Below, in pieces: positions 31,374 to 35,482 of a stretch of 64,000 nt of DNA (its first letter is position 1; each line of letters begins with the position of its first letter). Both the position numbers and the translations under genes were made by a program. This DNA is from Haloplanus rubicundus. GTDB taxonomy: Archaea; Halobacteriota; Halobacteria; Halobacteriales; Haloferacaceae. The notes beneath the pieces were generated by a model that ran no database searches, was not told where the DNA came from, and worked only from the letters and a program-made list of their open reading frames with translations. Where the stretch lies: NCBI RefSeq assembly GCF_003342675.1, contig NZ_CP031148.1, positions 1,736,001 through 1,800,000 on the forward strand. Direction: 5' to 3'.

Positions 31374-32624
31374 GTGGCGATTGAGGTCACTCGCACCTAC
31401 GTTGGTACCATTCAGAACCACCGGCAGGTCTGCAATGGCCTCGATTCGCTCGGTGATTCCGCCTCGAAAATCTGGAACATCGCACGCTGGACAGCCGACC
31501 GTGTATGGGATGAAACCGGCGAAATTCCCAATGAAGGCGTGCTGAAATCGTATATGAAGAACCGCGAGTGCTGGAAAGACTTGAACGCGCAATCCAGTCA
31601 GAAAGTCATCGAAGAACTTTCTGACGCTTTCCAGTCGTGGTTCGACCTGCGACAGAACGATTCAGAGGCGAATCCGCCCGGCTACCGAAAACACGGCGAT
31701 ACCCGACCCAAGAGTACGGTCACGTTCAAAGCAGACGGCTTCAAACACGACCCCGAACACAACCGCATCCGACTCAGCAAAGGCTCAACTCTGAAAGAGC
31801 ATTTCTCGGACTTTATCCTCTGCGAGTACCAGACTCGCCCCGATTTTGACCTCTCAGAAGTCAACCGAGTGCAGAACGTTCGCGCCGTCTGGAACGGCGA
31901 CGAGTGGGAACTACACTTCGTCTGCAAAGTCGAACTCGAAACCAACGACTCTGCAGGCGACGGTGTTGCCGGTATCGACCTTGGAATCACGAACATCGCC
32001 ACGGTTGCGTTCCCCGACGAATACGTCCTGTATCCCGGCAACTCGCCCAAGCAGGACAAGCACTACTTCACCCGAGCAGAGTACGATACCGAGGGTGAGG
32101 ACGGCCCGTCAGAGCAGTCGAGGTGGGCGCGTCGGAAGCTCGCTGACCGCGAAACGCACTTCTACCACACGTTGACGGACACCATCATCACCGAGTGTGT
32201 CGAACGCGGTGTTGGGGCGCTCGCCGTGAGTTGGCCGGAAGACGTGCGCGAGTCCGACTGGGGCAAGACCGGCAATAAGAAGTTGCATTCGTGGGCGTTC
32301 GACCGCATCTACCAGTACCTCGAATACAAAGGCGAGACACGTGGCGTTGAGGTGCTGAAAGAGAATGAATGGGAGACGTCGAAGACGTGTTCACGATGTG
32401 GAGACGACGCGAAGTCGAACCGTGTCGAACGTGGATTGTACGTCTGCTCATCGTGCGAGTTGGTAGCCAACGCGGATTGCAACGGGGCAGAGAATATGCG
32501 GCAGAAGATAACTCCGAGTCCTCACGGTGAGGATAGGAGTAACGGCTGTGTGGCACAGCCATCGACATACTTGTTCGACCGCGAGAGCGGGATGTTTCGC
32601 ACGAGAGAACAAGCCGTGTCGTAG
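31374..32624 (+). CDS. tnpB: RNA-guided endonuclease TnpB
   Basis: A 416-residue TnpB, the ancestor-type relative of Cas12 that cleaves DNA with a guide RNA made from the element end. The split RuvC site is intact: Asp202 (GVAGIDLGITN), Glu289 (SWPEDV) and Asp368 (NADCNGAEN). A zinc ribbon is made by Cys339-x-x-Cys342 and Cys358-x-x-Cys361 (TCSRCG, CSSC). The N-terminal domain is the usual WED/REC-like region. The start is a GTG; a nearby ATG at 31370 is out of frame. The length is normal and there is no frameshift, so the nuclease may be active. Confidence 0.93.
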   Translation: MAIEVTRTYVGTIQNHRQVCNGLDSLGDSASKIWNIARWTADRVWDETGEIPNEGVLKSYMKNRECWKDLNAQSSQKVIEELSDAFQSWFDLRQNDSEANPPGYRKHGDTRPKSTVTFKADGFKHDPEHNRIRLSKGSTLKEHFSDFILCEYQTRPDFDLSEVNRVQNVRAVWNGDEWELHFVCKVELETNDSAGDGVAGIDLGITNIATVAFPDEYVLYPGNSPKQDKHYFTRAEYDTEGEDGPSEQSRWARRKLADRETHFYHTLTDTIITECVERGVGALAVSWPEDVRESDWGKTGNKKLHSWAFDRIYQYLEYKGETRGVEVLKENEWETSKTCSRCGDDAKSNRVERGLYVCSSCELVANADCNGAENMRQKITPSPHGEDRSNGCVAQPSTYLFDRESGMFRTREQAVS

Positions 32625-33231: not shown

Positions 33232-33438
33232 ATGGCACTCAGTGCACGCAACCGGCTCGCTGGTACCGTCCGAAGCGTCGAAACCGACGGCCTGATGGCC
33301 GAAGTCGAGATCGAACTCGACGGCGGACAGGTCGTCACCGCCGTCATCACGGCGGGCTCCGTCGACCGCCTCGGCGTCGAGGAGGGGGCGGAGCTCGACG
33401 CCGTGATCAAGGCGACCGAAGTGATGGTCGAGAACTAG
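33232..33438 (+). CDS. Molbindin-like TOBE domain protein
   Basis: A 68-residue protein made of one TOBE/Mop domain: SARNRLAGTVRSVETDGLMA, then VEIELDGGQVVTAVIT and AELDAVIKATEVMVEN. Free-standing domains of this kind bind molybdate or tungstate as oligomers (molbindins) and buffer the oxyanion in the cytoplasm. It could serve the tungsten-type AOR elsewhere in this window. It is convergent with the methionine synthase gene, overlapping it by 4 nt. The length matches single-domain members. Confidence 0.88.
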   Translation: MALSARNRLAGTVRSVETDGLMAEVEIELDGGQVVTAVITAGSVDRLGVEEGAELDAVIKATEVMVEN

Positions 33439-34499
33439 TCGGCGCTGACTTCCGGCCCGAGATCGATCTCGCCGGCGTCGAGTTCGGCCTCGATCTCACG
33501 GGTCGCCGTCACCATGTTCTCGATCTTCTGTCGCGCGACTTCGCGCGGCAGCAGTTTCACGCCACAGTCCGGACTGACCGTCAGGCGCTCGGGAGGCACG
33601 ACCTTGAAGCCCTCCCGAATGTTCTCCTTGATCTCCTCGACGCTCTCTACGTCCGTGGTGTGAACGTCGACGACGCCGAGTGCGAGGTCGGTCGTGAACT
33701 CGGGATCGGTGAACACGTCGATCTGTTCGTAGTCGCCGTTACAGAGTTCCACGTCGAACTCGTCGATGGGGTACTCGAGCAGTTCGGGGTAGATGCGGGA
33801 GTAGTCGCCGTAACAGACGTGGAGACCGATCCGCACCTCGTCGGGGATGTTCGCGACGATACGGTCGAGACACTCGCCGACGATGGCGTGGTCGTCGGGC
33901 GTCGTCGCCAGCGCGGGTTCGTCGATCTGGATGTAGCGCGCGCCCGCCTCGACGAGCGCCTCGATCTCTTCGTTGACGAGGTCGGCGAGGGCGTAGGAGA
34001 GTTCGGCGTCGTCCGCGTAGGCCTCGTTGAACGACCACGAGGCGAGGGTGTAGGGGCCGGTGATCGGCACCTTCACCGGCTTGCTCGCGGCGGCGTTCGT
34101 GAACTCGAACTCGTCGACCAGCCACGACTCGCCGTACTCCACGTCGTCGACGACCGAGGGCTTGTCGAAGTAGTTGTGACCCCACACCTTCACCGGCCCG
34201 TTGAACTCGTAGCCGTCGATGCGGTCGGCGAAGAACTCCACCATCTCGTTGCGGCGCATCTCGCCGTCGGAGACGGTGTCGAGACCCGTCCGCTCGTGTT
34301 CGTCGACGATGACGCGACAGGCGTCGTCGTGGGCCTCGTGGAGGTGTTCGTCCGTGAACTTCGAGTCGGGGTCGTCCGCGAGGTCCGCCGCCCGGTTGAG
34401 CCACTTCGGCTTCGGGTAGGAGCCGACGATGGAGGTGAGCAGGAAGTGCTCGTTCGGGTGGTCGTCGGGGCGGAACTGTTCGCGGTTGTTCTCGCTCAT
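33435..34499 (-). CDS. Cobalamin-independent methionine synthase, zinc-binding subunit (MetE C-terminal type)
   Basis: A 354-residue TIM-barrel methyltransferase that resembles the catalytic half of MetE and methylates homocysteine. The zinc ligands are present: His and Cys in GLHVCYGD and Cys in SPDCGVKLLP; the active-site acids lie in DTVSDGEMRRNEMVEFFA and IQIDEPAL. It has no MetE N-terminal domain, as in other short core MetE proteins, which may use a methyl donor other than polyglutamylated methyltetrahydrofolate. The start overlaps the stop of the upstream partner gene by 4 nt, so the two are translated together. Confidence 0.88.
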   Translation of the reverse strand: MSENNREQFRPDDHPNEHFLLTSIVGSYPKPKWLNRAADLADDPDSKFTDEHLHEAHDDACRVIVDEHERTGLDTVSDGEMRRNEMVEFFADRIDGYEFNGPVKVWGHNYFDKPSVVDDVEYGESWLVDEFEFTNAAASKPVKVPITGPYTLASWSFNEAYADDAELSYALADLVNEEIEALVEAGARYIQIDEPALATTPDDHAIVGECLDRIVANIPDEVRIGLHVCYGDYSRIYPELLEYPIDEFDVELCNGDYEQIDVFTDPEFTTDLALGVVDVHTTDVESVEEIKENIREGFKVVPPERLTVSPDCGVKLLPREVARQKIENMVTATREIEAELDAGEIDLGPEVSAD

Positions 34500-35482
34500 G
34501 CGTCCACCTCCGCGAGCGCCGCGGCGTCACCGAGCGCCTGCAGCTTGTCCTCGAACTTGTTCACCGGCAGGTAGAACAGTTCGGTGTTGGAGGTGACGTA
34601 GGCCCGGTCGAAATCGGTGTGGGTGTTCTCGTCGACCCACTCGACGCGGTCACGAATGGTTTCGGGCGACTCGACGAGCGTGTTCCCCCCGTCGACCAGC
34701 CCCAGCGCCACCTGCTCTTTGGTGCCGTACTCGTTGATGTTGTAGAGGGCGTCCTCGGTTTCGGTCACGAAGTCGAAGCCGATGGCGTCCACGTCCGCGT
34801 CCATCAGGTGGGCGTACGTCTTCTCGGGCACGGCCCCCCAGTAGGTGTGGGCGACCACGTCGGCGTCGGTCGCCTCGGCCACGTGGTCGATGGCGGCGCT
34901 CGCGCGCTCGTTCGTGTCGTCGTCCGGTGGGTTCTCGACCAGCGAGGGTTCGAGCAGGAACAGCGTCTCGTGGTCCGGGAACGCCTCGATTTCGCCCGCG
35001 AGATAGTCCGCGACGGCGTCGAGGAAGTCAGCCTCGTCGCCGTAATGTTCGTCGGTCGCGAGGTCGGCGAGCGAGTACGGGCCGGGGAGGACCGCCTGCA
35101 GGGCGTCGGCGTCGACCGCCTCGAGTTCGGCGGCCACGTCGCCCGACGGCGTGAGTTCGCCCCGCACCTGCGGGTCGCGATAGAAGTTGTTGTTGTCGTA
35201 GTAGCGGACGATGCCGCCCGTCTCGACGTTCTCGTGGATCGTCAGCGGGTGGGCGAGCATGTCGTCCCAGCGCAGTTGTCCCTCGACGACGCTGTCGAGT
35301 CCGGCGTCGACCTGCGCGTCGACGACCTCGGCCCGCGTGCGGTCGTAGGCGTCGACGATCTCCGGCCCCTCGTCGCCGGCGATCAGATCGCCTTTCTGGT
35401 GGCCTTTCAGGTCCGATAGCTCGTCTTTCGCCCAGTCGGGAAGCGGATACAGTCCCGGTGTCGTGGCGACCAGTTCGGTCAT
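34496..35482 (-). CDS. MetE-like partner protein without zinc ligands
   Basis: A 328-residue TIM-barrel protein of the same UROD/MetE superfamily as its downstream neighbour. The barrel blocks are recognisable (GLDSVVEGQLRWDDMLAHPL, LPGPYSLADLA, LLEPSLVENPP), but the zinc site is gone: the H-x-C motif reads HTY, and the final Cys motif is replaced by TSNTELFYLP. It may bind the methyl donor or act as a structural partner in a heteromeric enzyme; that is inference. A TATA box at 35506-35515 starts the two-gene operon. Such pairs are common in haloarchaea. Confidence 0.82.
   Translation of the reverse strand: MTELVATTPGLYPLPDWAKDELSDLKGHQKGDLIAGDEGPEIVDAYDRTRAEVVDAQVDAGLDSVVEGQLRWDDMLAHPLTIHENVETGGIVRYYDNNNFYRDPQVRGELTPSGDVAAELEAVDADALQAVLPGPYSLADLATDEHYGDEADFLDAVADYLAGEIEAFPDHETLFLLEPSLVENPPDDDTNERASAAIDHVAEATDADVVAHTYWGAVPEKTYAHLMDADVDAIGFDFVTETEDALYNINEYGTKEQVALGLVDGGNTLVESPETIRDRVEWVDENTHTDFDRAYVTSNTELFYLPVNKFEDKLQALGDAAALAEVDA

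Follow-up and report, generated by a model that had tools for sequence, protein, structure and literature searches.

A 64,000-nucleotide stretch of the Haloplanus rubicundus genome (the window: positions 1736001-1800000 of contig C2, part of a 3.77-Mb haloarchaeal genome) carries two overlapping genes whose products both resemble the methionine synthase MetE, with a working zinc site in only one of them. What is the zinc-free protein, and from which donor does the pair take its methyl group? A preliminary description of the locus had proposed a heteromeric ‘core’ synthase in which both proteins lack the MetE N-terminal domain, with one subunit activating homocysteine and the other perhaps binding the methyl donor or a corrinoid or folate-like carrier. 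The analysis described here makes it very likely that the two genes encode a split MetE, that is, a cobalamin-independent methionine synthase with its two barrels made as separate proteins and with methyl-tetrahydrofolate (methyl-THF) as methyl donor.

The genes are real: both are minus-strand open reading frames (ORFs; Table 1), and both products match MetE families far above chance. Their four-base ATGA overlap is likely to couple the translation of the two subunits. Each protein is below 400 amino acids (aa) and comprises one barrel (328 and 354 aa), the size expected of split MetE. A PF01717 search of the whole genome matched these two genes only, and the closest named relative among the matches listed is Haloplanus ruber, with 87% identity over the upstream protein. 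Neither protein is a one-chain MetE, which joins both barrels in ~750 aa, the scores against TIGR01371 being 174.7 and 44.5 bits for a cut-off of 929.95 bits.

The downstream protein is readily placed. It scores 526.5 bits against NF003317 (cut-off 406) and 188 bits against PF01717, and its AlphaFold2 (AF2) model, with a predicted local distance difference test (pLDDT) score of 90.8, matches known MetE structures over their C-terminal half with Z up to 39. Its family matches the C-terminal barrel (C-barrel) of MetE with E 8e-51 and the N-terminal barrel (N-barrel) with E 5.6e-16 in HHalign comparisons. The upstream protein requires more discussion.

Identity of the upstream protein

The preliminary description was mistaken in denying both proteins the MetE N-terminal domain, and with it falls the idea of a ‘core’ synthase. 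The best Pfam match of the upstream protein is PF08267, at 46.3 bits (cut-off 27), compared with 36.7 bits for PF01717, as is expected of the N-component of a split MetE. In profile-profile comparison by HHalign, with 30 aligned upstream proteins (alignment A1) on one side and seven bacterial MetE on the other, the N-barrel was matched at E 8.5e-17 and the C-barrel at E 3.4e-9. A tree of 59 rows separates the MetE N-barrels plus the upstream proteins from the MetE C-barrels plus the downstream proteins with support of 100/99. By these comparisons, the upstream protein is the N-terminal barrel of MetE.

Several observations weigh against this assignment, and some of them would suit a different origin, in which the upstream protein would stem from a separate duplication of the archaeal catalytic protein, would not be the MetE N-barrel domain and would have another role such as regulation or stability. 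The fold is undecisive, the AF2 model of the upstream protein (pLDDT 91) being a barrel that fits either half of MetE about equally well (Z ~30, VIA-align); the alignments fell on the N-half of the Streptococcus mutans, Arabidopsis thaliana and Candida albicans enzymes and on the C-half of the Thermotoga maritima enzyme. Foldseek also returned MetE entries for this model, given without alignment ranges, and a PDB sequence search with the upstream protein alone gave no match up to E 1. The deciding branch of the tree joins long branches, of which the tree program warns. When the upstream profile was run on the seven bacterial MetE sequences singly, the N-half scored higher in five and the C-half in two (E. 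coli, at 30.0 versus 9.2 bits, and L194); the profile-profile comparison was relied on over this mixed scan. Furthermore, His111 of T. maritima MetE, the N-barrel candidate for proton donor, corresponds to Phe100 in the upstream protein, and for haloarchaea both the complex and its donor are predictions from genes. A duplicate with a separate role is nevertheless improbable: the profile-profile scores and the tree split speak against it, and the upstream family shares its Tyr, Asp and hairpin replacements with the N-barrels of MetE.

These replacements account for the missing zinc site. The preliminary description correctly read HVC and DCG in the downstream protein (residues 227-229 and 311-313), and HTY and TEL in the upstream protein (residues 212-214 and 300-302). 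Its statement that all zinc ligands are lost upstream holds for three places, now occupied by Tyr214, Asp237 and Thr300. It fails for the first, where the histidine is kept as H212 in the window's protein, some relatives having Asn, Gln or Asp. Position 214 is Tyr in 28 of the 30 rows and Phe in the other two; the N-barrels of seven bacterial MetE read TTY, ATY, ASY, QSY or QTY at the HVC place, so that Tyr is the N-barrel residue. According to the passages of Pejchal and Ludwig (2004; PMC539065) used here and below, the replacements that leave the N-barrel of T. maritima MetE unable to bind zinc and homocysteine include Phe230, Tyr232 and Asp253. As the changes from Cys to Tyr and from Glu to Asp in the upstream family are those of MetE N-barrels, a barrel of this kind normally lacks the zinc site.

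Table 1. Coordinates of the gene pair and its residues (positions in the window) and of related loci in other haloarchaea (positions in the named locus or contig)
Feature	Position	Strand	Basis
Upstream gene, MetE N-terminal-barrel subunit of split MetE, 328 aa, no working zinc site	34496..35482	-	ORF
Downstream gene, catalytic zinc/homocysteine barrel subunit of split MetE, 354 aa	33435..34499	-	ORF
ATGA, stop codon of upstream gene overlapping start codon of downstream gene by 4 bases	34496..34499	-	sequence
Upstream residues 24-30, DLKGHQK, conserved basic helix	35393..35413	-	K26 in 28/30 rows, K30 in 28/30 rows
Upstream residues 93-101, RYYDNNNFY, hairpin	35180..35206	-	R93 in 29/30 rows
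Upstream residues 212-214, HTY, at HVC place	34841..34849	-	alignment
Upstream Asp237, at place of zinc-ligand Glu	34772..34774	-	Asp in 30/30 rows, as in MetE N-barrel
Upstream residues 299-303, NTELF, at DCG place, Thr300 in place of Cys	34574..34588	-	alignment
Downstream Glu85, at place of Asp467 (DMV motif) of T. maritima MetE; Gly in lone proteins	34245..34247	-	alignment
Downstream residues 101-116, folate hairpin GPVKVWGHNYFDKPSV; rewritten in lone proteins	34152..34199	-	alignments
Downstream Trp155, at place of T. maritima Trp539; Phe in lone proteins	34035..34037	-	alignment
Downstream residues 227-229, HVC, zinc ligands His227 and Cys229	33813..33821	-	invariant, 109/109 rows
Downstream Glu251, zinc ligand	33747..33749	-	109/109 rows
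Downstream His280, at place of His672; Gln in lone proteins	33660..33662	-	alignment
Downstream residues 311-313, DCG, zinc ligand Cys312	33561..33569	-	Cys in 108/109 rows, 1 gap
Lone catalytic proteins of G001 and G007	L051:9358-10419; L052:9122-10183		A1 search, alignment
Lone catalytic proteins of G318 and G360	L178:9724-10797; L180, C1:459322-460356		A1 search, alignment
Fifth lone protein, Halomicrococcus gelatinilyticus plasmid NZ_CP100467.1	L198:12509-13540		tblastn of plasmids, G001 query
Ordinary split MetE pair of G372, a genome that also has corrinoid, activase and several MttB-family genes	G372:C2 and G372:C46 (L188-L190, L203-L217)

Catalysis and the methyl donor

Residue equivalences to T. 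maritima MetE were taken from our alignments together with the motifs named in PMC539065. The complete zinc site expected of the catalytic component of a split MetE is present downstream (H227, C229, E251 and C312). The same subunit has the features of a folate enzyme: E85, K113, W155 and H280 occur in all 109 paired catalytic rows of the alignment (107 of them distinct). In T. maritima MetE, Trp539 stacks on the pterin and His672 is a candidate proton donor to the folate (PMC539065). The upstream protein may contribute as well. Its R93 aligns with Lys117 of E. coli MetE and by motif corresponds to Lys104 of T. maritima MetE, a residue that contacts the pterin O4 (PMC539065), and the DLKGHQK helix is proposed to be the equivalent of the Arg15/Lys18 glutamate-tail groove of the T. 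maritima enzyme.

The following mechanism is envisaged. The downstream subunit would bind zinc, activate homocysteine and carry the pterin-binding residues. The upstream subunit would be a remodelled, zinc-free N-barrel facing the catalytic barrel, lining the groove for the folate tail and helping to position methyl-THF, from which the methyl group would pass directly to homocysteine. The formation of a complex, methyl-THF as the donor and the roles of single residues are what we infer from the genes. The part of the preliminary description that saw one two-subunit synthase, with the downstream protein activating homocysteine and the upstream protein serving the donor, is upheld by the co-occurrence and adjacency of the genes.

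The methyl donor of the pair is most likely methyl-THF, to judge from the residues retained. In the passages available from PMC8305020, haloarchaea use tetrahydrofolate, and HVO_1937 (mer) is proposed as the 5,10-methylenetetrahydrofolate reductase of Haloferax volcanii. The genome of the window has a Mer-like gene scoring 295 bits, under the cut-off of 348.7, and a partial PF02219 match of 47.5 bits. A plasmid of Halobellus limi (NZ_CP031312.1; L199:254-5086) carries a diverged split MetE pair directly behind three genes on the same strand; these are annotated as 5,10-methylenetetrahydromethanopterin reductase (Mer), DUF447 and beta-ribofuranosylaminobenzene 5'-phosphate synthase. Mer and pterin genes beside the pair fit a methyl-pterin donor, and from its gene order the cluster is possibly a methyl-pterin-to-methionine operon.

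The other donor to be considered is a corrinoid. Here the pair would be a corrinoid-fed core synthase, its upstream subunit binding a corrinoid or carrier protein from which the downstream subunit takes the methyl group. There are precedents, as the core MetE of methanogens and Dehalococcoides uses methylcobalamin in vitro (passages of PMC7857596 and PMC7005905), and lone relatives of the catalytic subunit in four genomes accompany corrinoid genes (see below). For the pair itself, a corrinoid donor is very improbable. The corrinoid-protein profile PF02607 has no match in the window's genome and matches strongly in only five of 391 genomes, whereas the pair is in nearly all. The folate features missing from the lone form are also retained in the paired catalytic subunit. 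Furthermore, at the place of E. coli Glu484, where MesA and MesC have Gln (PMC7857596, in part), it has Glu (Glu80, found in 109 of 109 paired rows and four of four lone rows). These points also speak against the corrinoid donor considered in the preliminary description.

Price, Deutschbauer and Arkin (2021; PMC7857596) describe split MetE as the sole methionine synthase of most Halobacteria, 73 in number, predict its donor to be methyl-THF or another methyl-pterin, and cite a complex of the Pyrococcus homologues PF1268/PF1269. As in their description, the N-barrel and the catalytic barrel have a gene each, the two usually lying side by side, and no feature was found to distinguish the window's pair, which is an ordinary split MetE and an instance of an already described form. 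In the passages of their paper used here, we found neither a residue-level account nor the lone catalytic exceptions dealt with below. One-chain MetE, such as E. coli metE, has two face-to-face barrels derived from one duplication (passages of PMC539065). It shares with the window's pair a zinc site in the C-barrel only, and Tyr and Asp at the ligand places of the N-barrel; it differs in that the window's barrels are separate proteins without a linker and that the candidate acid His111 is replaced by Phe. Core MetE (MesA, MesB and MesC in PMC7857596; core-MetE in PMC7005905, both in part) is a single zinc/homocysteine barrel of ~340 residues with no N-barrel partner, whereas the window's catalytic subunit has such a partner, encoded by the overlapping gene, and keeps the folate features.

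Conservation of the two genes as a pair

Of 194 haloarchaeal genomes searched, 192 contain the upstream gene, and the search with the downstream gene matched all 194, the match in genome G018 (E 6e-10) being a cross-match only. Both genes are thus present in 191 of the 194, with the catalytic gene alone in G001 and G007 and the upstream gene alone in G018. Frequent occurrence of either gene on its own, which would have told against a joint enzyme, was therefore not seen. The catalytic gene lies directly downstream on the same strand in all 80 named loci examined (the best 80 of 315 found), at -7 to +120 bases from the profile match; with the four-base overlap in the window, this is the adjacency expected of split MetE. 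In the loci taken from haloarchaeal genomes outside the named set, 46 of 47 upstream genes have a catalytic gene in the same locus, the exception again being G018.

It could be supposed that the catalytic subunit works alone and that the upstream gene is a mere co-transcribed neighbour, as four of 391 genomes have the catalytic gene without the upstream gene. This is the least probable of the alternatives and hardly to be credited. The lone proteins in question branch as a clade of their own, in which the folate features are gone, and G018, the sole genome of the 194 without a detected catalytic gene, has an upstream gene lacking the conserved helix and hairpin. In G018, a PF01717 search of the genome gave no match. 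The product of its orphan upstream gene (L073:7037-8029) has neither the RYYDNNNFY hairpin nor the DLKGHQK helix and forms a long branch in the tree, a degeneration that is as expected for a subunit freed from its partner, so far as the sequence can indicate. The organism is possibly a methionine auxotroph, or the upstream gene may be decaying.

Near the pair, the window contains a 416-aa ORF on the plus strand (31374-32624) with zinc-finger-like cysteine pairs at the C-terminus, as read from the ORF list. We take these pairs to resemble the zinc finger of TnpB/OrfB, of an IS200/IS605-type element.

Lone catalytic proteins and corrinoid genes

The A1 profile search of 391 genomes gave strong upstream matches in all but G001, G007, G318, G360 and G367. 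The first two belong to one genus (g20) and the next two to another (g68) of a different family; their weak A1 matches (72-99 bits) are cross-matches of the lone catalytic protein. G367 was not counted as a fifth loss: a contig end truncates its catalytic gene, genome completeness is 88%, and what remains of the catalytic protein has residues of the paired type.

In all four lone proteins the zinc ligands are retained, as are Ser27, Glu80 and Asp193, which contact homocysteine. Where T. maritima MetE has its folate residues, all four are changed, with Trp155 to Phe, His280 to Gln, Glu85 to Gly, and Lys113 (Arg496 in T. maritima) absent or Met. They differ at these places from every paired protein in the alignment, and the basic hairpin is rewritten. 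They form one clade (100/100), which groups with the haloarchaeal catalytic subunits (100/100), one diverged haloarchaeal sequence lying outside; the tree was made without methanogen or Pyrococcus sequences and only bounds the origin of the lone clade. Separately, genomes of g68 encode a second diverged PF01717 protein of ~385-397 aa with HTC and ADCG motifs (G318 L182:6090-7244; G360 L183).

The PF02607 search matched seven of the 391 genomes, strongly (best E <1e-20) in G001, G007, G318, G360 and G372 and weakly (E ~1e-4) in G162 and G176. Loss of the upstream gene is thus associated with corrinoid genes (Fisher test, p 5e-9 for counts of 4/0/1/386 when G367 is not taken as lacking the gene, 2.6e-8 when it is), in a test that treats genomes as independent, which they are not, the lone proteins being one clade with two genomes per genus. 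Near the corrinoid genes of g20 and g68 are genes for an activase (RACo) and for UroD-like and pterin-binding methyltransferases, with an MttB-family methyltransferase in g68 and G372 and an MtrH/MtgA-like protein in g68. Betaine-type transporters and sarcosine/dimethylglycine-oxidase-like proteins are also encoded around them. In g68, ~2 kb separate the lone gene from the gene resembling dimethylglycine oxidase, and 15-18 kb separate it from those for MttB and the corrinoid protein.

A fifth protein of the lone type was encountered on a Halomicrococcus gelatinilyticus plasmid when the G001 protein was run against plasmids by tblastn, and the first 4 of 197 records were examined; the other three carry ordinary haloarchaeal pairs with folate features. 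The plasmid protein, placed outside the tree, has the same changes (Gly, rewritten hairpin, Phe and Gln). Its gene has a member of the trimethylamine methyltransferase family at a distance of ~6 kb and a gene for a corrinoid protein at 24 kb, and the plasmid also carries an ASKHA-domain protein, MtrH and a BCCT transporter. The occurrence of the lone form in two genera of different families and on this plasmid suggests joint movement of this form and the corrinoid genes.

Residues and gene neighbourhoods make it probable that a few haloarchaea have lost the folate half of split MetE and converted the catalytic half into a stand-alone, corrinoid-fed core synthase. On the simplest account, a methyl-corrinoid would supply the methyl group to the lone protein, which would no longer need the folate barrel. 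The corrinoid protein that donates the methyl group would be part of a system for demethylating a quaternary amine, probably glycine betaine. Against such a switch of donor stand the single origin of the lone form, by which the co-occurrence does not amount to many independent events; the distance of at least 50 kb between the lone gene and the corrinoid genes in g20; and genome G372, which has a corrinoid cluster together with a normal pair on one contig, the folate features being kept. G372 contradicts the expectation that corrinoid genes imply loss of the upstream gene. Therefore, among the genomes seen, the lone protein accompanies corrinoid genes and not the reverse.

The lone haloarchaeal proteins probably work in the manner of core MetE, if the retained and altered residues are a guide. 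They differ from MesA and MesC (PMC7857596, in part) in keeping Glu at the place of E. coli Glu484 and in grouping with haloarchaeal split MetE. In marine bacteria, according to the passages available from PMC12478193, methyl groups of glycine betaine can reach homocysteine via a corrinoid protein (MtgBCDE). The homocysteine module there, MtgE, is part of a split cobalamin-dependent synthase, whereas a MetE-type barrel is proposed for the haloarchaeal exceptions. A literature search for a donor switch in haloarchaea produced no report recognised from titles or abstracts, subscription papers being mostly outside its coverage.

The window itself is one more case of an enzyme form already described, and its analysis corrects the idea that the upstream protein is not a MetE N-barrel. 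The wider significance lies with the exceptions. The second barrel of MetE is puzzling because most of the folate determinants sit in the catalytic barrel, as passages of Pejchal and Ludwig have it (PMC539065). As the lone proteins have one origin and the same four changes, the specificity for the donor would be set by a few positions and the second barrel. Haloarchaea thus offer apparent natural variants, catalytic barrels with a partner and folate features and catalytic barrels without either, and with these it becomes directly testable, in relatives of a tractable laboratory archaeon, what the second barrel does and which residues decide between folate and corrinoid.

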